Of a DNA stretch of 64,000 bases, positions 1,347 to 49,255 are shown in pieces. Within the stretch, counting starts at the first letter, position 1, and each line of letters begins with the position of its first letter. The stretch is from Chlorobium sp. (lineage in GTDB: Bacteria > Bacteroidota > Chlorobiia > Chlorobiales > Chlorobiaceae), in contig SZXV01000002.1 of NCBI GenBank assembly GCA_005862225.1, forward strand, positions 186,001 to 250,000, in the 5' to 3' direction. Both the position numbers and the translations under genes were made by a program. The notes under the pieces were generated by a model that saw only the letters and a list, made by a program, of their open reading frames with translations, was not told the origin of the DNA and made no database searches.

Positions 1347-1934
1347 ATGCGTGAAGTTGAAGCTTTACAGTGGTATGCTGTCTATGTTCGCTCCCGGTAT
1401 GAAAAAAAAGTGCATCAGATGTTGCTTGAACAGGAGATTGTGAGTTTTCTACCACTGCTCGAGACGTGGAAGCAATGGAGCGACAGAAAGAAAAAGGTTT
1501 CAGAGCCCTTGTTCAGGGGATATGTCTTTGTCAATATTGAACTGCGCAAAGATAATATCAATGTGCTCGATACGGAAGGTGTTGTCAAGTTTATCGGGAT
1601 TGGAAGAAATCCGTCGGTCATTGGAAAGAAAGATATTGAATGGTTGAAAAAACTGGTCAGGGAGCCTGATGCTGTCACCGGAACCGTCTCTTCCTTGCCT
1701 GCGGGTCAAAAGGTCAGGGTTCTTGCCGGTCCATTCAAGGATTTGGAAGGTGTGGTTGTAAAGCAGGGCCGAGAGGCCAGGCTTGTGGTTTTTTTTGATA
1801 CCATTATGCAGGGTGTGGAAGTCAGTATTTTTTCTGATTTACTCATGCCGATCAAGGGGGCCATTGACCCTCGCGTCAGCAATCCGATTTATCAGGAAAC
1901 AGATCCCATTGCAAAGCATTTCCTGCACTTGTGA
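1347..1934 (+). CDS. NusG-family specialised antiterminator (UpxY/RfaH-like)
   Basis: A NusG N-terminal domain (L-Q-W-Y-A-V-Y-V-R-S-R-Y-E-K-K at the start, P-L-F-R-G-Y-V-F-V in the middle) is followed by a KOW domain with A-G-P-F-K-D-L-E-G-V-V. Such paralogues ride on RNA polymerase and prevent early termination in long operons, usually polysaccharide clusters. The frame is open back to a TTG at 1272, but the family start is the ATG at 1347, giving 195 residues. Housekeeping nusG normally sits with secE and rplK, which are absent here, so I call a specialised paralogue. The following genes on this strand are not a polysaccharide cluster, so its target operon is not evident. Confidence 0.8.
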   Translation: MREVEALQWYAVYVRSRYEKKVHQMLLEQEIVSFLPLLETWKQWSDRKKKVSEPLFRGYVFVNIELRKDNINVLDTEGVVKFIGIGRNPSVIGKKDIEWLKKLVREPDAVTGTVSSLPAGQKVRVLAGPFKDLEGVVVKQGREARLVVFFDTIMQGVEVSIFSDLLMPIKGAIDPRVSNPIYQETDPIAKHFLHL

Positions 1935-1990
1935 TTTTCTGGATGTAACAAGGGCGATGGGGCCGGGACAGAGCGATTAATATCTCAGGA

Positions 1991-2080
1991 TTGAATTTTC
2001 CACCGTTTGCGGTGAGGTTTGTTTAGGCACTTCTAAAAATAGTTACCCCGCAGCTTGCAGCGGGGAGCTTCATTGGATCA
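1991..2080. repeat. Degenerate dispersed double-hairpin repeat, copy A
   Basis: Two short GC-rich hairpins (CCACCGTTTGCGGTG at 2000-2014 and CCCCGCAGCTTGCAGCGGGG at 2046-2065) are joined by an A-rich linker. A clearly related but degenerate unit lies at 56458-56541, with the same order: TTGAAT, CCACCG hairpin, AGGC, TCTAAAAA, CCCC hairpin. The arrangement resembles REP/BIME-type elements. The second hairpin could also stop transcription from the nusG paralogue, although it lacks a clean T-run. Confidence 0.5.
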
Positions 2081-2091
2081 TATAATGCTAT

Positions 2092-2097
2092 GGAGGG
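2092..2097 (+). promoter_or_regulatory. Ribosome binding site deciding the MFS start
   Basis: GGAGGG lies 4 bases upstream of GTG 2102. It sits inside the reading frame that begins at ATG 2090, so it would be useless for that ATG but is well placed for the GTG. Confidence 0.55.
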
Positions 2098-2101
2098 TTT
2101 T

Positions 2102-3343
2102 GTGAATCAGAACAAGTCTGCATCTGTTCGTGAGATTTTCAGTTTACCGGTTATTGTCGCCGCTCTGGGTTATTTTGTTGACATCTATGATCTGGTGCTC
2201 TTCAGCATCGTCAGAGTGCCGAGTCTGAAATCGTTTGGACTTTCCGGAAAGGAGCTGATTGATTACGGCGTTTTCCTGCTTAATATGCAGATGGTCGGTA
2301 TGCTGGTTGGCGGCATTCTCTGGGGCTGGCTTGGTGACAAGAAGGGGCGTCTGAAAATCATGTTTGCCTCTATTTTGCTCTACTCTCTTGCCAACATTGC
2401 CAATGGCTTTGTCTCTTCGCTTCCGGCGTATGCGGTCTTGCGTTTTATTGCCGGAGTTGGTCTTGCCGGGGAGCTTGGAGCTGGCATCACGCTTGTTTCA
2501 GAAGTTTTGCACACCAAAATAAGGGGATACGGCACTATGCTTGTCGCTTCAATCGGAGTGTCGGGCGCTATTCTTGCCAATATGGTAGCAAATACCTATG
2601 AGTGGCATAATGCCTTTTTTATTGGCGGTGGTCTTGGACTTCTGCTGCTTGTTGCACGGTTAAAAGTTGCTGAGTCAGGTATGTTTAAGGCTATGGAGGA
2701 AAAAACCGGCTTGAGCCGTGGCAATATGTTGGCTCTGTTTACCGACCGGAATCGTTTTTTCCGCTATGTCAACTCTATAATGATTGGCGTCCCGATCTGG
2801 TTTGTGGTTGGAGTGCTGATTACTTTTTCGCCTGAATTCGGCACTGAACTTGGAATTACCGGGCCGGTTTCTGCCGGTAATGCGGTGATGTACTGCTATC
2901 TTGGTCTGGTCTTTGGCGATTTTTCAAGTGGTCTGTTGAGCCAGCTTTTGAAGAGCCGGAAAAAGGTTATTCTGCTGTTTATGCTGCTTACTGTTGGATC
3001 GATTGCACTCTATTTTCTTCAAGGGCATCAGAATCCGCAATTCTTTTATATGGTTTGTGCACTTCTTGGTTTTGCCGGTGGTTACTGGGCTATTTTTGTC
3101 ACCGTGGCTGCTGAACAGTTTGGGACAAATCTTCGCGCTACCGTTGCAACCACAGTTCCCAATCTTGTCCGTGGTATGGTTGTGCCCATTACCATGCTGT
3201 TTCAGTTTTTCCGTGGCATGTTTGGTATGGAATCAGGGGCATTGCTGGTTGGAGGGCTCTGCATTTCAGTCGCCTTTCTGTCGCTCAGCGTCCTTGAAGA
3301 GACCTTCCATAAAGATCTTGATTATTACGAAGAGTTTCTCTGA
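2102..3343 (+). CDS. MFS transporter
   Basis: A polytopic protein of 413 residues with about 12 hydrophobic segments and the MFS loop 2-3 signature G-x-x-x-D-x-x-G-R-x (G-W-L-G-D-K-K-G-R-L). It is a secondary carrier of the inner membrane. The length and overall layout resemble metabolite:H+ symporters, but I cannot name the substrate. I choose GTG 2102 over ATG 2090 because of the ribosome binding site at 2092-2097. DUF2127 follows after 20 bases and may be cotranscribed. Confidence 0.85.
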   Translation: MNQNKSASVREIFSLPVIVAALGYFVDIYDLVLFSIVRVPSLKSFGLSGKELIDYGVFLLNMQMVGMLVGGILWGWLGDKKGRLKIMFASILLYSLANIANGFVSSLPAYAVLRFIAGVGLAGELGAGITLVSEVLHTKIRGYGTMLVASIGVSGAILANMVANTYEWHNAFFIGGGLGLLLLVARLKVAESGMFKAMEEKTGLSRGNMLALFTDRNRFFRYVNSIMIGVPIWFVVGVLITFSPEFGTELGITGPVSAGNAVMYCYLGLVFGDFSSGLLSQLLKSRKKVILLFMLLTVGSIALYFLQGHQNPQFFYMVCALLGFAGGYWAIFVTVAAEQFGTNLRATVATTVPNLVRGMVVPITMLFQFFRGMFGMESGALLVGGLCISVAFLSLSVLEETFHKDLDYYEEFL

Positions 3344-38919: not shown

Positions 38920-41880
38920 TCAGTAGTACTGCCGGATATAGCCATAAGCCTTGTCGAACAAGTCTTGATCTTTGATCTGGTATTTCACGTAAATCACTTT
39001 GCGGAGCGCCCTCTGAACTTCTCGCTCTCCGGCTTTGGTGCTTTGCCATCCCGGAAAACGAACCAGACGAACAATTTCGTCGATGTCGGTCACGATTCGC
39101 TCAACGACGATTGGTGTTTTGACATTTTTCACTTCTGCCAAAAGCTCGGTCAAAGCAGTTTTAGCCTTGCTCTGGTCATCGACAGGAAATACCTGTTTCT
39201 CTGCTTGTAAAACATCCTTTGCCAGCATCAGCAACTCTTTCAAAAAGTCAAGGCTATGGAGCAATCCCTGCTCATGTTTTTCCTTGAGTTTTTCAAGACG
39301 CTCACCCAAGGCGATAAACATCGGATTGTTTCTATGCCTACGCAAGCGGGCAATGAGCTTGATCTCAACCTCTTTTGACTTCTTGCCAGGCTCACCGGAG
39401 TCGAGCAGACTTTCCAGTACATCGGCATCCATCACCAGTGTATCGAGATCGTCACGAAGCGCTTGCAGATGCACATTTTCGTGAACCAGCTCAATCGTTT
39501 TGGCTCCAAGGGCGTGCCAGAGCAGCTTGCCATTCCCGCTTGGCGGCTTTACCGATTCATACACCTGAGTCAGCCACTTGTAATCGGCCTCACAGGGTTC
39601 GAGGCTGTGGTCGGGCGACAACGCTTCCCAAAGTCTGGAGAGCACCGAGTATTCAGCCGCAAACCTGTCGCGAGTCTCGTTGTCAGGCAGGCAATCCTGA
39701 GCGGCAATAAGCCCTTCATAACCACCAACGGAGCGATCCACTCCGGGAAAAAACAGCAGGCATTTTTCTACCTGTGTTGGCAGCTCTTTTTTAAGCTCAT
39801 CCAGATTGGTAATAACCCGCAATACCGCTTTTTCATCGAAATCGAGCGCCGTTGCAACGTCATCAAAAATGCCGAGATAATCGACAATCAGCCCGTGGGT
39901 TTTGCCCGGATAGAGGCGGTTTGTGCGGCAGATGGCCTGGAGCAGGCTGTGATCTTTCATCAGCTTGTCGAGGTACATCACCTGAAGAATCGGTGCATCG
40001 AAACCGGTCAACAGCTTGGCCGTGACAATCAGGAACTTGAGCGGATCAGCCGGGTCACGAAAGCGGTCGAGCAACTTTGCCTCATCATCTTTGGAGAGTT
40101 TCCATTTGGCGTATTCATCACCCTTTCCAGCCTGGGTGTGCATAACAATGGCGCAGGCATCTTCGCCGAGCAGCTTGTCCAAGGCTTTTTTATAGAGGAC
40201 GCAGCACTCCCGGTCCAGCGTAACCACTTGCGCCTTGAAGCCGTTGGGTTCAACTTTGGCTTGATAATGCTTTGCGATGTGGTGGCAGATTGCATCCACC
40301 CGTGCAGGCGCCTTGACCAGCACGGCCATCTTCGCCGCCCGTTTGGCCAGATCATCGCGATCCTGCCCGTTCAACTGATCGGTGATCAGCAGATAGGCTT
40401 CATTGATCGCCTCCTTTTTGATATGGAGCTTGACATCGACCGCCTCAAAGTGGAGTGGCAGCGTGGCGTTGTCGCGAATCGAGTCCTGAAAGGAGTATCG
40501 GCTCATATACCCCTGCTTGTCCTCCTCCGCTCCGAAGGCCCAGAAAGTATTGCGGTCGCGCTTGTTGATGGGCGTACCGGTCAGTCCAAAGAGAAAGGCG
40601 TGGGGCAGCGCTGCCCGCATTTTGCGCCCCAGATCACCCTCTTGGGTACGATGGGCCTCGTCTACCATCACAATGATGTTTGAACGGTCATTCAGGCATC
40701 CCTCTGCTTCACCAAATTTGTGAATGGTTGTGATGATAATCTTTCGAGTATCCGCCCCGAGAAGTTTTTGAAGTTTCTGCCGGGTTGCCGCCCCGATCAT
40801 GTTTGGAATATCGGTGGCATTGAAGGTTGCTGTAATCTGGGTGTCGAGATCAATACGGTCAACAACAATGATCACCGTCGGGTTACCAAGCTTACCGTGC
40901 ATCCGCAGCTTCTGCGCTGCAAAGACCATTAGCAGCGACTTGCCCGAACCCTGAAAATGCCAAACGAGACCTTTTTTCGGGTAGCCATTAACAACACGGG
41001 AGACCATGAGGTTTGCCGTTTCATACTGCTGGTACCGGCTGATGATTTTGATCCGCCGATGCTTTTTGTCGGTGGCAAAGAGGGTAAAGTTCTGCAACAT
41101 ATCGAGCACAATATGCGGACGAAGCATCGCGCCGATTGAGCGCTGCACATCAGCCATTGTCCCTTCCGTCTTGTTCTCGCTCTCATGCCAGGGGCCCCAG
41201 ATATCAATGGGCATGCGCACGGTGCCATAACGATAGCATTTGCCTTCGGTCGCAAACGAGAGGACATTCGGCACAAAAATTTGCGGCACGCTCTGCTCAT
41301 AGCCGTTGTAAATATCGCTGGCGCCATCCACCCAGGTAACTGCCGGACGAACCGGCGTTTTGGCCTCGCCAATAACGAGCGGAATTCCGTTGACCAGCAG
41401 CAGGATGTCGAAGCGGCGGCCACCCTCCTTGACCGGGTAGACCCATTGGCTGGTCACCACATAGTCGTTATTGCCCAAATCCTCAAAATCAATCAGCCGC
41501 ACCGACGAGTATTCACCGCCCGTACCAAAAGGCATGGACTTTTCGCCACGAAGCCACTCAGCAAACAGCTCATTGGCCCGAACCAGCCCCTCGCTCCGCA
41601 CCGAGAGCGGAATGGTACGAAGACGATAGAGTACCTCATCGGCACGATCCGGCTGCACCATAATTTCCGGGTTCAGGCGGATGAGCGCATCACGAACCAT
41701 CGGTTCTACCAGAACGCTGGAGTATTGGCGTGGCAGCTCTTCGGCTGGTACAAATCGCCATCCTTTAACCGCACCTGAATAAAGCGCTCGTTCCTCGGCA
41801 AGCAAGCTCTGCGACATACTTCCGGAGAGCGTGTCGAGAACCATCTGCTCGACGGTGTTGGTTTCGTTGAAACAGCTCAC
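38920..41880 (-). CDS. hsdR: Type I restriction enzyme R subunit
   Basis: 986 residues, normal HsdR size. The N-terminal PD-(D/E)xK nuclease has D158 (R-F-D-I-L-L-L) and E172-A-K174. The SF2 translocase follows, with Walker A F-Q-G-S-G-K-S at 309-315, D-E-A-H at 407-410 and later motifs including Q-A-I-C-R-T-N-R. A C-terminal helical part should bind the M2S core. The start is GTG 41880, overlapping the TGA of the ASCH-kinase gene in GTGA. It is thus the last gene of the operon and depends on ribosomes that translate the cassette. All catalytic motifs look intact. Confidence 0.95.
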   Translation of the reverse strand: MSCFNETNTVEQMVLDTLSGSMSQSLLAEERALYSGAVKGWRFVPAEELPRQYSSVLVEPMVRDALIRLNPEIMVQPDRADEVLYRLRTIPLSVRSEGLVRANELFAEWLRGEKSMPFGTGGEYSSVRLIDFEDLGNNDYVVTSQWVYPVKEGGRRFDILLLVNGIPLVIGEAKTPVRPAVTWVDGASDIYNGYEQSVPQIFVPNVLSFATEGKCYRYGTVRMPIDIWGPWHESENKTEGTMADVQRSIGAMLRPHIVLDMLQNFTLFATDKKHRRIKIISRYQQYETANLMVSRVVNGYPKKGLVWHFQGSGKSLLMVFAAQKLRMHGKLGNPTVIIVVDRIDLDTQITATFNATDIPNMIGAATRQKLQKLLGADTRKIIITTIHKFGEAEGCLNDRSNIIVMVDEAHRTQEGDLGRKMRAALPHAFLFGLTGTPINKRDRNTFWAFGAEEDKQGYMSRYSFQDSIRDNATLPLHFEAVDVKLHIKKEAINEAYLLITDQLNGQDRDDLAKRAAKMAVLVKAPARVDAICHHIAKHYQAKVEPNGFKAQVVTLDRECCVLYKKALDKLLGEDACAIVMHTQAGKGDEYAKWKLSKDDEAKLLDRFRDPADPLKFLIVTAKLLTGFDAPILQVMYLDKLMKDHSLLQAICRTNRLYPGKTHGLIVDYLGIFDDVATALDFDEKAVLRVITNLDELKKELPTQVEKCLLFFPGVDRSVGGYEGLIAAQDCLPDNETRDRFAAEYSVLSRLWEALSPDHSLEPCEADYKWLTQVYESVKPPSGNGKLLWHALGAKTIELVHENVHLQALRDDLDTLVMDADVLESLLDSGEPGKKSKEVEIKLIARLRRHRNNPMFIALGERLEKLKEKHEQGLLHSLDFLKELLMLAKDVLQAEKQVFPVDDQSKAKTALTELLAEVKNVKTPIVVERIVTDIDEIVRLVRFPGWQSTKAGEREVQRALRKVIYVKYQIKDQDLFDKAYGYIRQYY

Positions 41881-42830
41881 GAGAGCATTCCTTTAATTAA
41901 CTTAACTGGCATGGAGAACTCAATATCACTTTGAATAATTCGCAACGGAACTCCGATTCTTTTTGACACATAATGAGCGTGCTTTTCTTCCTGTGCTTGA
42001 AATTTTGAGAGAAATTCTTCAGACCAGATATCCCCATCTCGTTCTTTAATTCTGCTTGCGATTTCATTCGGACAACCTTTAATCAAAAAGAGTTTATTTG
42101 GCTTCATGGCATCAAAAACCGCAGCCGGGATTGGCTCGATATCGCCTTGGTTATTTATAAGTGTAAAGTGTCCGTCGAGTAACAAACGACTATATTTTAC
42201 TTTAGCTGATGCAAGTTGTTGTAGCAATACATTCTGGTTATCTTCAATATGATCAACGTTTTTATTTTTACCAGTATCTTTTCCTTGTGAAGCAATCAGA
42301 GCACTAGCTGTTAAACATTGATATCCCGCTGGGCCAAATACACTCTTGCACATACTAGTTTTTCCAACACCATGAACTCCGCCCACAAAAATAATAGAAG
42401 GAGGTACAGAAGGAGCTATTTGTTGACACTGAGAAATCAGGTTCATGTCCTCCTCTTCGAGGTAGTAAAAGGACTGTGGCGGAAGTTTATGACCAGTTAG
42501 ATCAGATAAATCAATAGGTCTTGACATTTCATAAACATTGCCAAGAACATAAGCGATTGCCTTGCTGTGTTCTGAGAAGTAATCCTGGAAATAAAAACGA
42601 GATACTCCAGAAGCAAACGATGTTGCATTCCAAACATATGTAGGAGATCCAATTACACGATCGACTACTTCCGCAACTGCAACAATTTTCTTTACTGGTG
42701 CAGTGCAATAAAAAACAATGCGTGAAATATTGTGCCTTGGGGTTACTTTCCTGTACTCGAATACCTTTTTTCCAGTTAAAATGTTTGCAAGATGTTCTGG
42801 GTTAATTGAGAAAAGCGCAGATCGATTCAT
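41877..42830 (-). CDS. ASCH domain fused to a P-loop kinase-like domain
   Basis: 317 residues. Residues 1-120 look like an ASCH (PUA-like, RNA-binding) domain: A-L-F-S-I-N-P-E-H-L-A-N-I-L-T-G-K-K at 5-22, then E-Y-R-K, and V-A-E-V-V. Residues 145-317 form a P-loop NTPase with Walker A G-G-V-H-G-V-G-K-T-S at 150-159. The layout of the rest (L-L-L-D-G-H-F near 217, R-I-K-E-R-D at 260) resembles small-molecule or polynucleotide kinases of the AAA_33 type. The start is ATG 42830, sharing its A with the TGA of the upstream gene (TGATG). An upstream in-frame ATG at 42854 is less likely. The gene is AT-rich compared with hsdR. The family is not one I can name; the role in RNA handling is inferred. 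Confidence 0.75.
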   Translation of the reverse strand: MNRSALFSINPEHLANILTGKKVFEYRKVTPRHNISRIVFYCTAPVKKIVAVAEVVDRVIGSPTYVWNATSFASGVSRFYFQDYFSEHSKAIAYVLGNVYEMSRPIDLSDLTGHKLPPQSFYYLEEEDMNLISQCQQIAPSVPPSIIFVGGVHGVGKTSMCKSVFGPAGYQCLTASALIASQGKDTGKNKNVDHIEDNQNVLLQQLASAKVKYSRLLLDGHFTLINNQGDIEPIPAAVFDAMKPNKLFLIKGCPNEIASRIKERDGDIWSEEFLSKFQAQEEKHAHYVSKRIGVPLRIIQSDIEFSMPVKLIKGMLS

Positions 42831-44308
42831 CAATTTACGCTCCGGTTGATGCATTGTAAATATTGCTCATGTGTTATTTTTCGTATACTTTGAATAGGGC
42901 CTTTAATTTCGGCTTTTTCAAGTATATGATGGCTTATTGGAGATATGTTTCTTATAAATCTAAAGAGAATGACTAAAGTCTCTTTTAGTAGACGCTTTTC
43001 AATTTCACCTTTTGAATAAACAGTCCGTTTTGAAACCAGTGGAAGCACTTTATCAATATCTCGTCCACGATAATTCTGCTCTACGACTCCAATACATTCA
43101 ATACTTTTTCGGTCTTGAGTTCTAAAAAAAAGCAATAAGTCTCCAGGTCGAACTCCTGTCGTATTTGAGTGGCAGATATAAGCCTTTTTTATGGTATTTG
43201 ACTGAGGACTATAAAAACTATGATCACCAGAAAATAATCCTCGTGCAGTATCACTGGTATCGGCAAAAAGATCGTTATAGTATTCTGGCTGAATTGGAAC
43301 AATAAATTTTGCAATATGCGGATTATCCAGATAATGAGGATAATATCTTATCGCATACGATAACGGATCAAGCTCAATTTCCGGTTTTGACGGACAGATC
43401 ATTTCTTTAAGATACACATTGTCTCGACTATCATATTTTCCATAATATTGAAATCCATAATCCAAACACAATGACACAAGCATGTCGTGTTCTTCACCAA
43501 ATGTATGCAAGTATACATACTGGATATTATTCTCCACCGCATATTTGAATGAGGCGAACAGTAGCCGCTCTCCAAGCTTTCGGCCACGAACACTTTTTCC
43601 TACCTTGAAAGTACAAAGTTTTAAGGCCCTACCGTTTAACGATAGGCCACCATCACCTATGCAAGGTCTATCTTCTATCTTATATATGCAGATAGCGTGA
43701 ACAACTCCATTATCGCTAATACACCAAGCTTTTCGTTGGTTTCTGGCTGATTTCAGATACCACTCATTAAATTGATCATATCCTTCACGCAGAGAATCAA
43801 AAAAGGGCTGGGTGACGTCAAATTGATGCAGGTAACGTTCTTGAATCCCAAAAGGAGGTGGTTGCTCATCTTTGTTTTGAGATTTAAGAAAAGCAAGGAA
43901 CTGATCTATCCGATGAACTTGTTCCTGAACGTTTGCCTGTTTAGCTTTTTTATGGATTTCTTTGTCACCAGTGACAAGGAAGTGAACTGCACCTCGACAA
44001 AGAGCATGCAAAAGCAGATTATCAACGTGATCATTATCGTTGTTCTGTTTCCAGTCATAACGAAGCAAATCGTCAGCAGTAATTTGAGGAGGAAAGGGAA
44101 TTGACTGATATTGCTTTACTCTGGAAAGGACAATATTTTTCCTTGCCTCGTTTGAATCCCTAAGTATGTCTTCTTCTTGAGAAGGATGAGTATATAAAAT
44201 ATGACCATGTTGATCAGCTAATCGGCACATTTCTGCGAGTGAAGGATCTAGTACTCGTCCAGTATCCTCTAAAGGAATTAAAATATTAGTGTCAATCAAA
44301 ATATTCAT
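42830..44308 (-). CDS. PIN - GNAT - ASCH/EVE-like three-domain protein
   Basis: 492 residues. Residues 1-145 are a PIN nuclease domain: L-I-D6-T-N-I-L-I at the start, D96 in H-V-D-N-L-L-L-H and D115 in V-T-G-D-K-E-I-H. Residues ~165-305 are a GNAT acetyltransferase with the acetyl-CoA loop R-G-R-K-L-G-E-R-L-L at 241-250 and C-L-D-Y-G-F-Q-Y-Y-G near 281. Residues ~330-490 look like an ASCH/EVE-type PUA-like domain (F-I-V-P-I-Q-P-E-Y, G-D-L-L-L-F-F-R-T, C-I-G-V-V-E). PIN domains are mostly RNases and PUA-like domains bind RNA or modified bases. The gene follows hsdS by 84 bases and is coupled to the ASCH-kinase gene. I infer a regulated RNase effector; the target is unknown. Confidence 0.8.
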   Translation of the reverse strand: MNILIDTNILIPLEDTGRVLDPSLAEMCRLADQHGHILYTHPSQEEDILRDSNEARKNIVLSRVKQYQSIPFPPQITADDLLRYDWKQNNDNDHVDNLLLHALCRGAVHFLVTGDKEIHKKAKQANVQEQVHRIDQFLAFLKSQNKDEQPPPFGIQERYLHQFDVTQPFFDSLREGYDQFNEWYLKSARNQRKAWCISDNGVVHAICIYKIEDRPCIGDGGLSLNGRALKLCTFKVGKSVRGRKLGERLLFASFKYAVENNIQYVYLHTFGEEHDMLVSLCLDYGFQYYGKYDSRDNVYLKEMICPSKPEIELDPLSYAIRYYPHYLDNPHIAKFIVPIQPEYYNDLFADTSDTARGLFSGDHSFYSPQSNTIKKAYICHSNTTGVRPGDLLLFFRTQDRKSIECIGVVEQNYRGRDIDKVLPLVSKRTVYSKGEIEKRLLKETLVILFRFIRNISPISHHILEKAEIKGPIQSIRKITHEQYLQCINRSVN

Positions 44309-44392
44309 TTTGGCTGATTATCGCTTATTGTTATTTTACAGAACAATAGAAGTAAATGTTTTAAACATCATGTTTTTTAAATATAGACAAGG

Positions 44393-45598
44393 TCAATTTA
44401 TATCAATACTATTAACAAGTTTGTTAAGTATCTTTTTTTGAAGATAATTCAGAACTTCAATGTGTTGAGCGATTGCCTTAGTGCTTTCGTCAAGTGAACG
44501 AAGCATATGGCCAATATTTGCTCTTTCTTGAGCCGGAGGTACGATGATAGGTTTTTTTTCAAAGAAATCTCTTGGAACCCTAAGTTGTCCCGCCGAACCC
44601 TGCATCCAGCGTTCAGCTTTTTTTCTATATATTTTTGACATGCTTAGGTAATAAACAAAATTTGTGTCTGATATATTTTTAGGGCTCAGGACAAAGAATT
44701 CGGTACTACCCATTCCAATTCTATTGGTTAGTCCTTCAGCAACAGCTCCTTTGTTGTTTTCCATGCATGGAGTAATCTTTGCGAAGAGTATATCGCCTTC
44801 AGCGAAATAAGTGTATCCTGTCCTTACCTCAGCTAAGATTTTTATTTCTTTTTTGGATATACCTCCGCGTTCCAATACGTTCTCCATTGGAACGAAGGAT
44901 ATTTCCATGAAGTTACTAAGATCTTTTGGAAGTTTTGGATCGAGTCGAACCAGATCAGTAATGAACCCAATCGACCATCTCTCGGGGATAAGTGGGTTCT
45001 TTTTTATCGCCTCATGGAGTAAAAAATTATTAACTGAAAAAATATGGAAAAGGACTTTTTGTTGCTGAAATACAGCTATCCATTTCTCCAGTGTCTCATT
45101 TACCGCCCACAAAATCTCAGCAATGCGCTTCTGATCCCTAATAGGTGGCAGTGGAAACTCAAAATCTTTTAACGCTGTCCAACTGGTTCTTGGTGAAAGC
45201 GACCCAGCAGATGTTCCAAGAGCATAATCAAAGAAAGCCTCGCTTTGGCAGATAAACGGCAGCAGTTCCGGCAGCAGAATATTCCTGTCCTTGGTCTCGA
45301 AAGTCAGGATGTCGCCAGAACAGATCCCTTCAAATTCGGCATAGGCAACCTTGCGCTGATAGGTGCGGCGTTTCCCGAACAGCGTCTGCCCCGGGATAAA
45401 TTTGCGGGAGAAGGACGTTGCATCTTCAGACGAGCTCATCCACCGACGAATGTGCAGATTCTCCGGATCGAGATGCTCCAGACCAACGATTCGTTCGATA
45501 CCATTGGTCACGGGATCACGCTCTACCAGATTTGTATTACGAACCACGTCGCCGAACTTCACTAGCTTCCAGCCGAGCTTCAAAGGTTTTTCACTCAT
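44393..45598 (-). CDS. hsdS: Type I restriction-modification specificity subunit
   Basis: 401 residues with two target recognition domains, each followed by a conserved helix (F-P-L-P-P-I-R-D-Q-K-R-I-A-E-I-L near 150 and I-V-P-P-A-Q-E-R-A-N-I near 355). It sets the DNA sequence recognised. ATG 45598 (M-S-E-K-P-L) overlaps the hsdM2 stop by 8 bases; ATG 45616 is the less likely alternative. The 5' half is near neighbour composition, while the 3' half with the second recognition domain is clearly AT-richer, as expected for domain swapping. Confidence 0.93.
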   Translation of the reverse strand: MSEKPLKLGWKLVKFGDVVRNTNLVERDPVTNGIERIVGLEHLDPENLHIRRWMSSSEDATSFSRKFIPGQTLFGKRRTYQRKVAYAEFEGICSGDILTFETKDRNILLPELLPFICQSEAFFDYALGTSAGSLSPRTSWTALKDFEFPLPPIRDQKRIAEILWAVNETLEKWIAVFQQQKVLFHIFSVNNFLLHEAIKKNPLIPERWSIGFITDLVRLDPKLPKDLSNFMEISFVPMENVLERGGISKKEIKILAEVRTGYTYFAEGDILFAKITPCMENNKGAVAEGLTNRIGMGSTEFFVLSPKNISDTNFVYYLSMSKIYRKKAERWMQGSAGQLRVPRDFFEKKPIIVPPAQERANIGHMLRSLDESTKAIAQHIEVLNYLQKKILNKLVNSIDIN

Positions 45599-47747
45599 TT
45601 GAAAAAAACTTCCCAAGACTGTTCAATGGAGTCAATTTATTATAACGCATCCAGCCAAGAGCGTTATACCATCGAGCTTCTTCGATACGTTTTTTATTTT
45701 CATGCCAATTGTTGAGAACTTCTTCAACTATTTGTGACTCAGATGCATCTATTCCGGCATAAAGAAAATCACTCCAAGCGCCATACAAGGTGGCTATAAT
45801 CTCGCACTGCTCAGTTTTAGCATGTCGCAATAACTGTACAATTCTTGCTATCTCTTCTTCTCCGCTTCCGAAATAGTTTGTAAAGTATTTTTCGTAATAA
45901 CCAAATTTCTTTCCAGGAAGATATGTTATGCGGTCGCTTTTCTTTTGAATCTTAAACCATTCATTTTGAATAAATATCTTCTCGATTGAGCGTCGTGCTT
46001 TAGGGTCATAAGGGCCTGCTGCTTGCCGCAAATGATGGTGATGTAATGCATCCGTTAGGCCGAGCATTTTCTCACAAAGGAAAATAATTTTTTCCTGTTT
46101 GACCGCTCCAAATGTTGGCTCTTTATAAAGTTGAGGCGTAATTTTTGCGGCAAAAACCGCTCTTTTGAATGCAGGAGGTACAACTTTATTCTTATTTATA
46201 GATACTGTATCGGGTACTGTGTTATTTTCTTCAGGCGCTTTTCCAATCAAATTTAACAAGCTGATCATCGACTCACGCAAAGCCACGGAACTCTCCTGCC
46301 ACTCGGTAATAGTTTGTTTCAGGGAGCCTTGGCCATAGGTGTCGGGCTGTTCTGAGAGCGTCAGTTGTTGTTTGTTTGTCGTTTGGACATAGAGCGGAAT
46401 ACTGAGATTGCTCCCTTTTTCGCGAATCTCGTCATTGGTGGCCACGCGGGCAAAGCCATCTTCATTGGTAAAGGTTTGCCAGACGGCGACAATCCGCTGA
46501 ATATGTTCATCCGTCAAAAAGCTTTGCGCCCGTTCGCGGGTCACTTCGTTGATGGCGTTGATGAAAAGCACCTTGTTTCGGCGCTCTTTTGGCTTGTTCA
46601 TGCGGCATATGACGATGCAGGCCTCCATCGGGGAGTTGTAAAAGAGGTTGGGGCCCAGGCCAAGCACGCACTCTATTACATCATGAGCAACCAGCTTTTC
46701 GCGCATGGCTGACTCTTCGTTGCGGAAGAGGACTCCGTGGGGGAAAAGGATAGCGCAGCGGCCTGAGCTGGTTTTCATGCTTTTGATAATGTGCTGCCAG
46801 AAGGCATAATCGGCGCGGCCCTGCGAGGGGGTGCCGTAGATGTTTCGTCCCCAAGGATCGGAGGACCAGACGTTTCGATCCCACTGTTTGATGGAGTAGG
46901 GTGGATTGGCAAGCACCATATCAAATTGCATCAGGCGATCGCCTTCAACGAAGAGGGGATTGGCAAGCGTGTCGTCTCGAACAATACGGAAATTCTCGAT
47001 ACCGTGGAGAAAGAGATTCATGCGGCCAATCGCCGAGGTGAGCAGATTGCGTTCCTGCCCAAAGAGGCGGAGATTGCGCCACTCTTTGTTCTGACGCTTC
47101 AGGTAAATGACGGCTGAGAGCAGCATACCGGCTGAGCCGCAAGTAGGATCGTAGATTGACTCGCCCTGTTTGGGCTCAAGCATTTCGGTCATCAGGTGAA
47201 CGACCGTGCGATTGGTGTAGAACTCAGCTGCGGTGTGGCCGGAGTCGTCGGCAAATTTTTTGATAAGAAACTCATAGCCGATACCGAGTTCATCTTCAGG
47301 GCAGTTGGCGAGTGAGAGCGTTTGCGAGCTGAAATGCTCTATCAGCTCACGAAGCGTATGGTCTGCCAAGCGCTCTTTGTTGGTCCATTGGGCATCACCG
47401 AAAACTCCGTAGAGGGTATCCTGATTGGCGCCCTCTATCTCCCGCAATGCGCTCTGGATGGCTTTGCCGACGTTGTGCACCCTGGTGCGGGTGACCTGCC
47501 AATGGGCCTCGATGGGAATCTGAAAACGGTGTTGCTCTGGCAGTTCGGCATAGTTCCGGTCACCACCGGAGAGTTGCAGCGCTTCAGCACTCTCTTCGTC
47601 ATGGACGTCGCAGAGGCGTTTGTAGAAGAGCAGGGGGAAGATGAACTGCTTGTAATCTCCAGCGTCGATATAGCCTCGCAGTAGGGTAGCCGCGCCCCAG
47701 AGGTAGGATTCGAGTTTTGATTGGGAGATCGTTCTGTTCTTTTTCAC
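45591..47747 (-). CDS. hsdM: Type I methyltransferase subunit 2 (NPPY type) with C-terminal extension
   Basis: 718 residues, about 200 longer than usual. The first ~490 residues parallel HsdM1 along their length: S-adenosylmethionine motif D-P-T-C-G-S-A-G at 200-207 and catalytic N-P-P-Y at 281-284. In type I systems with two M subunits the NPPY member has been shown to make N4-methylcytosine. The extra C-terminal part (about 510-718) is much AT-richer and includes F-K-R-A-V-F-A-A-K-I and Y-D-P-K-A-R-R-S-I-E-K. I do not recognise it as catalytic; similar tails are, from memory, found on HsdS or alone near hsd genes. Start GTG 47747 overlaps the hsdM1 stop (GTGA). Confidence 0.93.
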   Translation of the reverse strand: MKKNRTISQSKLESYLWGAATLLRGYIDAGDYKQFIFPLLFYKRLCDVHDEESAEALQLSGGDRNYAELPEQHRFQIPIEAHWQVTRTRVHNVGKAIQSALREIEGANQDTLYGVFGDAQWTNKERLADHTLRELIEHFSSQTLSLANCPEDELGIGYEFLIKKFADDSGHTAAEFYTNRTVVHLMTEMLEPKQGESIYDPTCGSAGMLLSAVIYLKRQNKEWRNLRLFGQERNLLTSAIGRMNLFLHGIENFRIVRDDTLANPLFVEGDRLMQFDMVLANPPYSIKQWDRNVWSSDPWGRNIYGTPSQGRADYAFWQHIIKSMKTSSGRCAILFPHGVLFRNEESAMREKLVAHDVIECVLGLGPNLFYNSPMEACIVICRMNKPKERRNKVLFINAINEVTRERAQSFLTDEHIQRIVAVWQTFTNEDGFARVATNDEIREKGSNLSIPLYVQTTNKQQLTLSEQPDTYGQGSLKQTITEWQESSVALRESMISLLNLIGKAPEENNTVPDTVSINKNKVVPPAFKRAVFAAKITPQLYKEPTFGAVKQEKIIFLCEKMLGLTDALHHHHLRQAAGPYDPKARRSIEKIFIQNEWFKIQKKSDRITYLPGKKFGYYEKYFTNYFGSGEEEIARIVQLLRHAKTEQCEIIATLYGAWSDFLYAGIDASESQIVEEVLNNWHENKKRIEEARWYNALGWMRYNKLTPLNSLGKFFSNE

Positions 47748-49255
47748 AGTAACCCCTCCCGAATCAGCAGTTCTTTGAGATGATCTTCGGCAGCATAGGC
47801 CGCACCGAGAGAGAGCTTGAGACTCTCCATGGCTTGCTCAATCGTCAGAGTTTCTTCTTCAATGAGAGGTTCAATATAGCGAGGAATGTTCAGGTTGAAA
47901 TTGTTCTCCCGAATTTCGTCGAGGGTGACGACCCGGCAAATTCCCTCTACATCCTGAAAGTCATGATACCAACGGTGGATGTTTTTTACATGTTCCGCCA
48001 GCAGTTCGTTCTGTGCCCGGCAGGTTTTGAACTCCTTGGAGGCATCAATGAACAAAATCTTCTGGCGACGCTTGTGAAGTTTGGTTTCACGGAAAACAAG
48101 CGTGCAGGCGGCCAGACCGGTACCGTAAAAGAGGTTGGAGCCAAGCCCAATGACCGCTTCAAGCTTGTCCATCTCCACCAGTTTGCGACGGATTTCTCCC
48201 TCCTTCGACATGCGAAAGAGCACGCCGTGAGGCAGCACCACCGCCATGCGTCCCTTTTTGGGAGCCAAGGACTTGATCATGTGCTGCACCCATGCGAAGT
48301 CGCCTGATTTTGCGGGTGGTAGTCCGGCAATGTTGCGCCCGAATGGATCGTTCACCCAGGCATCCTCACCCCATCGGTCGAGCGAAAAGGGAGGATTGGC
48401 AATCACGCAGTCGAACGTGTCAAGGCTGTCGCCGGAATAGAAGGCGGGTTGGCGCAAGGTGTCCCCGCGTTCAATATGAAAATCTTCCGCACCGTGTAAA
48501 AAGAGGTTCATGCGGGCAATGGCAGAGGTGGTGAGGTTCTTTTCCTGACCGTAGAGTTTGCCGAGCATCAGTTTTTCGTCGCCGCCATGCTCTTTGACGA
48601 GGTGCAGAGCTTCAAGCAGCATTCCGCCGGTACCGCAGGCGGGGTCGTATACGCTCTCGCCAGCTTCGGGCGCCAGAATGCGCACCAGAAGAGCGACCAC
48701 AGAACGGGGTGTGTAAAACTCTCCAGCTTTCTTGTTGGTGAGATCGGCAAATTTTTTGATCAGGTATTCGTAGGATTGACCAAGAATATCGGTTCTGCAA
48801 TGCTCGTTTCCGAGGTTCAGCGATGAAAAGTGTTCGATCAGATCTTTGAGAAGGGCGTCAGAGAGGCGCTCCTTGTTGCTCCATTGGGCATCACCAAAAA
48901 TTCCGTGCAGGGTATCCGGGTTGGCCTGCTCAATGTTGCGCATGGCTTTTTGGAGCGCATGTCCAATGTTGGTGCTTCTTGATCGAACGTCGTTCCAGTG
49001 GCACTCATCAGGGACCTGAAAGCGATGGTTTTCTGGAAAAAATGCAAAATCGAGGTCACCACCAGACTCTTCAAGAGCAACAGTGAACTCTTCGTCATAA
49101 ACGTCGGAAAGGCGCTTGAAAAACAGGAGTGGAAAAATGTACGTTTTGAAATCAGCGGCATCAACTGGGCCCCGCAGAATATTGGCAGCTTCCCAGAGGT
49201 GACTGGAGAGGGTTCCCTGCTGGATCACCTGATCATTTTCGCCCTTTTGCCTCAT
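47744..49255 (-). CDS. hsdM: Type I methyltransferase subunit 1 (NPPF type)
   Basis: 503 residues, standard HsdM. An N-terminal helical domain is followed by the methyltransferase core with D-P-A-C-G-T-G-G at 204-211 and N-P-P-F at 287-290, the form that makes N6-methyladenine. It is the first gene of the operon, reading away from pnp and the Fic remnant. A second, clearly related HsdM follows with a 4-base overlap, so the natural complex is probably M1-M2-S. No ribosome binding site is evident before ATG 49255. Confidence 0.95.
   Translation of the reverse strand: MRQKGENDQVIQQGTLSSHLWEAANILRGPVDAADFKTYIFPLLFFKRLSDVYDEEFTVALEESGGDLDFAFFPENHRFQVPDECHWNDVRSRSTNIGHALQKAMRNIEQANPDTLHGIFGDAQWSNKERLSDALLKDLIEHFSSLNLGNEHCRTDILGQSYEYLIKKFADLTNKKAGEFYTPRSVVALLVRILAPEAGESVYDPACGTGGMLLEALHLVKEHGGDEKLMLGKLYGQEKNLTTSAIARMNLFLHGAEDFHIERGDTLRQPAFYSGDSLDTFDCVIANPPFSLDRWGEDAWVNDPFGRNIAGLPPAKSGDFAWVQHMIKSLAPKKGRMAVVLPHGVLFRMSKEGEIRRKLVEMDKLEAVIGLGSNLFYGTGLAACTLVFRETKLHKRRQKILFIDASKEFKTCRAQNELLAEHVKNIHRWYHDFQDVEGICRVVTLDEIRENNFNLNIPRYIEPLIEEETLTIEQAMESLKLSLGAAYAAEDHLKELLIREGLL

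Follow-up and report, generated by a model that had tools for sequence, protein, structure and literature searches.

In silico analysis of a Chlorobium sp. window (the whole stretch of DNA that was analysed, 64,000 nucleotides) revealed a locus which very probably encodes a non-canonical m6A/m4C type I restriction-modification (RM) system of the M1-M2-S type, in which the first TRD of the specificity subunit (TRD1) would serve a cytosine half-site together with M2, and the second (TRD2) an adenine half-site together with M1. The locus is assigned to this subgroup because of its gene content, homology, signature and contact residues, clade membership and the type of TRD1, and from these observations we infer the assembly of the subunits, the modified bases and the half-site sequences. 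The m6A/m4C type I subgroup itself was reportedly described by Morgan et al. in 2016.

Two hsdM genes head a minus-strand gene cluster of the window, followed by hsdS, two cargo genes and hsdR. This cluster (38920-49255) probably constitutes one operon. The first gene (hsdM of M1 type; 47744-49255, minus strand) encodes a protein of 503 aa (FDCVIANPPFSL) with the NPPF and AGEF motifs, which is the predicted m6A subunit, while the second (hsdM of M2 type; 45591-47747, minus strand) encodes a protein of 718 aa (FDMVLANPPYSI) with NPPY and AAEF, the predicted m4C subunit. N6_Mtase and HsdM_N domains were found in both proteins, and their reading frames share 4 bases. The hsdS gene (44393-45616, minus strand; Methylase_S), whose start is likely an internal ATG, encodes two TRDs, and hsdR (38920-41880, minus strand) encodes a restriction/translocation subunit of 986 aa (HSDR_N and SWI2_SNF2; TIGR00348, 497 bits). 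Adjacent unlike M genes, one hsdS and hsdR are all present at the locus, and the NPPF HsdM1 and NPPY HsdM2, which the preliminary description had placed at 45591-49255 together with one HsdS, were recovered there as minus-strand ORFs.

A search of all PDB chains assigned the two M subunits to different classes. The best match of the NPPY subunit is M2 of PacII (7vru_B; E = 6.4e-185; 619 bits vs. 424 bits for 7vru_A), and that of the NPPF subunit is PacII M1 (7vru_A; E = 1.6e-177; 594 bits vs. 479 bits for M2), with 58.5 and 57.6% identity, respectively. According to the accessible part of the PacII study (PMC9613975), PacII M1 combines AGEF with NPPF, and M2 combines AAEF with NPPY; both pairs are present in the window subunits (NKKAGEFYTPR and CVIANPPFSL in M1, GHTAAEFYTNR and MVLANPPYSI in M2). 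Among the mappable residues tested or described in the accessible part of that paper (R11 lies outside the alignment), 29 of 31 are kept, i.e., 10/10 in M1 and 19/21 in M2, with K15 and D19 differing in the latter. Chance is not an issue for the motif IV difference, since the motif sits in full-length family members. Arg at the position of PacII R29, described there as M2-specific, was rejected as an M2 marker, because the window NPPF subunit also has Arg at this position. The host genome (2.5 Mb, 13 contigs) gave 13 N6_Mtase matches, and NPPF was found in all six further HsdM-like frames that were read, drawn from nine other N6_Mtase frames of at least 480 aa.

A similarity scan with the NPPY subunit, using search patterns without motif IV, yielded 281 relatives, 80 of which were listed and used. 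The hosts of these 80 belong to many bacterial groups and include some archaea. NPPY is present at all 80 listed loci, and an NPPF-class M1 homologue lies upstream at 78 of them; at the other two the NPPY gene begins 0.9-1.4 kb from the locus start. This pairing of M1 and M2 genes argues against the two proteins being separate homodimeric methyltransferases that share one HsdS and leave mixed marks. In the accessible part of PMC9613975, PacII M1 with S alone is described as keeping partial m6A activity, which would speak for separate enzymes, yet M2 alone does not bind S, and we consider such an arrangement extremely improbable compared with a joint M1-M2-S enzyme. In 13 of the 80 listed relatives M2 is directly fused to the S protein, with TRD1 first. 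Among long segments from the listed loci, 72 of 73 M1 sequences carry AGEF and NPPF, and 79 of 80 M2 sequences carry AAEF and NPPY. An M1-type subunit of another locus (L106; 7664-9175) has AGEF and no readable NPPF, and adjoins a normal M2.

From 232 available M sequences, 131 entered the phylogenetic tree, drawn from one in three of the 80 listed loci and from all later loci. M2 sequences (47/47, local support 1.0) and M1 sequences (45/45, 0.953) each formed a clade, a monophyly that is partly built in, as sequences had been assigned to the M classes according to their scores with the window subunits. M1 and M2 together were monophyletic (0.884) to the exclusion of 39 other HsdMs, and the window M subunits fall in two separate clades, one in M1 and one in M2. 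The agreement between clade and motif (46/46 for M2 and 44/44 for M1, apart from the window) is not built in. In the HsdMs of five loci (L191, L192, L194, L265 and L275), the pattern search detected neither NPPF nor NPPY in motif IV.

NPPY alone was rejected as sufficient proof of m4C, since HsdMs with NPPY, lacking AAEF and placed outside the M2 clade, occur at six loci (L258, L261, L263, L269, L272 and L274), where the neighbouring TRDs are of the Leu/Ile type. Moreover, PacII M2 is described as also methylating an adenine offered by a switched substrate (PMC9613975, accessible part), so the m4C mark would depend on TRD1. For both reasons, the specificity subunit must be read as well. Both observations would also suit a canonical m6A/m6A type I system, with two adenine-methylating M subunits and NPPY as a mere variant of motif IV. 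For the window locus this is very improbable, since its NPPY subunit carries AAEF and lies in the M2 clade, and since its TRD1 has an Arg that none of the TRDs counted at loci lacking an M2-clade M possesses, as described below.

TRD1 of the window HsdS (45060-45598, approximate ends, minus strand; GKRRTYQRK, with Arg at the positions of PacII R75 and R76) matches residues 4-167 of PacII S in the PDB search (E = 9.7e-35 for the whole sequence). In the PacII study, as far as its text is accessible (PMC9613975), TRD1 reads CCC and feeds M2. Five of the six DNA-contact residues reported there for PacII TRD1 (R75, R76, Y78, Q79 and K81) are kept in the window protein, and H94, one of three base-contact residues, is replaced by Asp. 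In 64 relatives the H94 position is occupied by Asp (30), His (25), Thr (8) or Lys (1). The half-site of TRD1 is predicted to be related to CCC, though perhaps not identical to it in view of the Asp. TRD2 (44393-45045, approximate ends, minus strand) is of the non-Arg type and gave no match to PacII TRD2 in the PDB search; it is the predicted reader of an adenine half-site, with m6A on the opposite strand. Nearly every HsdS of the 80 listed loci (of 281) has a TRD1 of the same family and a variable TRD2, as seen among HsdS proteins gathered by similarity to the window HsdS, a procedure which an unrelated TRD1 would escape.

TRD1-like loci were collected in a scan of 394 genomes belonging to the phylum of the window and in two further draws of 378 genomes; the first scan supplied the stronger matches only, and the two later draws supplied all listed matches, bar two already in the set. 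Distinct TRDs of at least 40 bits were counted, leaving out duplicates and sequences with a gap at the column. Where the locus has an M2-clade M, 80 of 85 TRDs carry Arg at the position of PacII R75, compared with none of 51 TRDs where it has another M; the residue in these 51 is Leu (37), Ile (12) or Met (2). The five exceptions at M2-clade loci are all second TRDs, including the window's own TRD2. Outside the count stand the second TRDs of L235 and L241 (FPKRGAFLNK), with Arg at the column in another context, as well as L202 and L211, where Arg comes from another TRD type. For three Arg-type TRDs, the sequence initially retrieved contained no M: those of L184 and L187, both near contig ends, and that of L243, for which a longer stretch contained an M1-M2 pair upstream, beyond an inserted zot-like cluster. 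Inspection by eye placed a zot-like, filamentous-phage-type cluster with a resolvase between hsdM2 and hsdS both at L243 and at L330. Fisher's test gave p = 5e-32 for the Arg association, a value which treats TRDs of shared ancestry as independent events; the link between Arg at R75 and the M2 clade is a family-level association among similarity-collected TRDs of common descent.

The distribution of Arg-type TRDs fits the prediction that they read cytosine half-sites and work with an NPPY M2. A natural test is offered by two M2-only operons, L189 (2390-10196) and L193 (4305-9911), each encoding a single NPPY/AAEF M subunit and an HsdS whose two TRDs are both of the Arg type, as would be expected if this TRD type read cytosine. 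Both are predicted, from their sequences, to be cytosine-only systems placing m4C on both strands. Cytosine-only type I systems have reportedly been described by Morgan et al. Genes for a macrodomain protein and for an ATPase also lie within the L189 operon.

Homology and contact residues point to a cytosine-reading TRD adjoining M2. The preliminary description had predicted one adenine and one cytosine half-site for the two TRDs; the sequence comparisons support this and sharpen it, with TRD1 as the probable cytosine side, adjoining the NPPY subunit. Its broader proposal, that the locus fits the m6A/m4C (M1-M2-S) subgroup, is supported by homology and subunit phylogeny, by the catalytic signatures and interface residues, and by the TRD1 type, all of which agree. 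In the mechanism that we propose, the NPPF M1, the NPPY M2 and one HsdS would assemble into an M1-M2-S methyltransferase, which would form the restriction complex with two HsdR subunits. TRD1 would present the cytosine of its half-site to M2, giving m4C, and TRD2 would present to M1 an adenine from the second half-site, located on the opposite strand, giving m6A, while unmodified phage DNA would be translocated and then cut.

In length, the NPPY subunit exceeds most of its relatives by approximately 210 aa, a feature missed in the preliminary description, as were the two cargo genes between hsdS and hsdR. The additional part forms a tail domain (residues about 520-710; the last 194 residues are encoded at 45594-46175, minus strand). 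Among the 80 loci listed of 281, the same tail was found only in L030, L060 and L062, and it is absent from 77. The PADLOC type I methyltransferase model PDLC03039 spans the whole length of the NPPY subunit, so the tailed architecture already exists in databases. Of 394 genomes of the phylum, 15 were found to encode the domain, which mostly forms the C-terminal end of HsdS-like proteins and sometimes stands alone; one of these occurrences is in a macrodomain protein (L122), part of a DarT-DarG pair (1414-3154; identified with Pfam and PADLOC). Over its length the window tail aligns to the C-terminal part of this DarG (BLASTP, E = 1e-10, 25% identity).

An AlphaFold (AF2) model of the tail, built from five sequences, reached a pLDDT of 84.6; the fold of the 718-aa subunit predicted without an alignment (pLDDT 33.8) was useless. 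In Foldseek, the tail model matched at rank 1 chain 7yk3_B, the DarG part of the Mycobacterium tuberculosis DarTG complex, with probability 1.00 and TM 0.56/0.57, but with E = 0.068. The same chain was the top VIA match (Z 12.5, rmsd 4.2, 167 aligned residues; next row Z 7.7) and also the top, non-significant, sequence-profile match of the tail (E = 0.91). By homology and modelled fold, the tail is a domain of the type that forms the DarT-binding C-terminus of DarG. It resembles the C-terminal domain of DarG (7yk3_B; L122) in sequence and in fold, but differs from DarG in having no macrodomain and no DarT in the genome and in being fused to HsdM. Among the fetched loci, DarT was detected next to DarG in L122 and otherwise only as a weak match in L100.

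Two other identities were considered for the tail. Panacea (SocA; PF13274) was matched by 2 of 13 tail-domain relatives (best E = 0.0031), and hhalign of the tail against PF13274 gave a probability of 8.3 (E = 0.004) compared with a top value of 2.8 in 30 shuffles; as a name it is suggestive only, and the DarG match is stronger. An acidic DNA mimic is unsupported, the tail being basic (pI 9.2). Viral contigs gave no tail in a first scan and one locus (L152) in a second, and a pattern scan of 52 loci added none; the viral fold library contained no match to the tail with E < 0.001. Within the part of the literature covered, no report of a DarG-type domain on HsdM or HsdS was found.

DarG-type domains bind toxins, as established for DarTG. 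The most likely ligand of the window tail is a protein, either a toxin or one encoded by a phage, and the tail is most likely dispensable for methylation, because 77 of the 80 listed relatives (of 281) lack it; a C-terminal extension could also alter enzyme function. A type I operon that harbours a DarTG2 system is on record (PMC12255303, accessible part), which provides a route to an HsdM-tail fusion. A fuller reading, in which the m4C subunit is an antitoxin-type partner whose tail binds a DarT-like toxin or phage protein, and in which Arg rather than Leu, Ile or Met at the R75 position marks cytosine TRDs, is put forward tentatively, as a whole more doubtful than probable.

The two cargo genes lie adjacent to each other between hsdS and hsdR (41877-44308). 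The first encodes a PIN-GNAT-EVE protein (PADLOC PDC-M11A; 42830-44308, minus strand; PDLC04421, E = 1.2e-125), with GNAT assigned by Pfam, and PIN and EVE by eye and by the match of its architecture to that in the accessible part of PMC7641849. The second encodes a fusion of an ASCH-like domain with an AAA_17 P-loop ATPase (PDC-M11B; 41877-42854, minus strand; PDLC04425, E = 1.5e-33), with AAA_17 assigned by Pfam and ASCH by eye and from the same source. The accessible part of Bell et al. (2020; PMC7641849) describes a PIN-GNAT-EVE, ASCH and AAA_17 module that is associated with type I operons; the window shares its domain order and operon association, but has the ASCH and ATPase parts in one protein.

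PDC-M11A was found in 9 of 296 genomes of the phylum. Its eight loci outside the window comprise (i) five that stand alone with PDC-M11B in the fetched stretches, (ii) one near another type I-like hsdR, and (iii) two located before an hsdR of the window kind, one of them with an M1-M2 pair in view. An extra same-strand ORF of at least 120 aa is present in 42 of 53 complete M1-M2-S-R loci (L030-L109, among the 80 listed of 281), and the cargo of eight sampled loci includes AAA_13 (in our reading, PrrC/RloC-like), GmrSD, Schlafen-type AlbA, a DUF1016 nuclease and helicases.

Tail and cargo could in principle form one unit with the RM enzyme, the M2 tail restraining a PIN-GNAT toxin. They share an operon, DarG-type domains bind toxins in DarTG, and DarTG2 has been reported within a type I operon (PMC12255303, accessible part), but the two do not co-occur elsewhere among the 80 listed relatives (of 281), where L030, L060 and L062 carry the tail but no such cargo and L055 carries the cargo but no tail, and the cargo is usually a stand-alone pair. 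Such a unit is consequently not favoured and appears very improbable.

Compared with PacII M1M2S (7vru, 7vs4; PMC9613975, accessible part), the window locus has the same adjacent M1 and M2 genes, one HsdS and HsdR, the same signature pairs, approximately 58% identity per subunit and a cytosine-type TRD1, and it differs in the DarG-type C-terminal domain of M2, in Asp at H94 of TRD1, in a TRD2 that gave no match to that of PacII in the PDB search, and in the PIN-GNAT-EVE/ASCH cargo between hsdS and hsdR. Membership of the locus in the m6A/m4C type I subgroup is well supported; it is a new representative, whose cytosine subunit bears an uncommon antitoxin-type domain. The two-M arrangement is an addition to a known subgroup, and the TRD residue rule offers a means of recognising m4C type I systems that is superior to NPPY; if it holds, a single residue at the position of PacII R75 would allow such systems to be called from sequence. 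If the tail does have an antitoxin-type role, a phage that captured the methyltransferase or caused its loss would set free a second layer of defence. A DarG-type domain on HsdM, as in the window, or at the C-terminus of HsdS, as in others, would join restriction and toxin-antitoxin defence in one complex, a link which fits the embedding of DarTG2 within type I operons described in the accessible part of PMC12255303.
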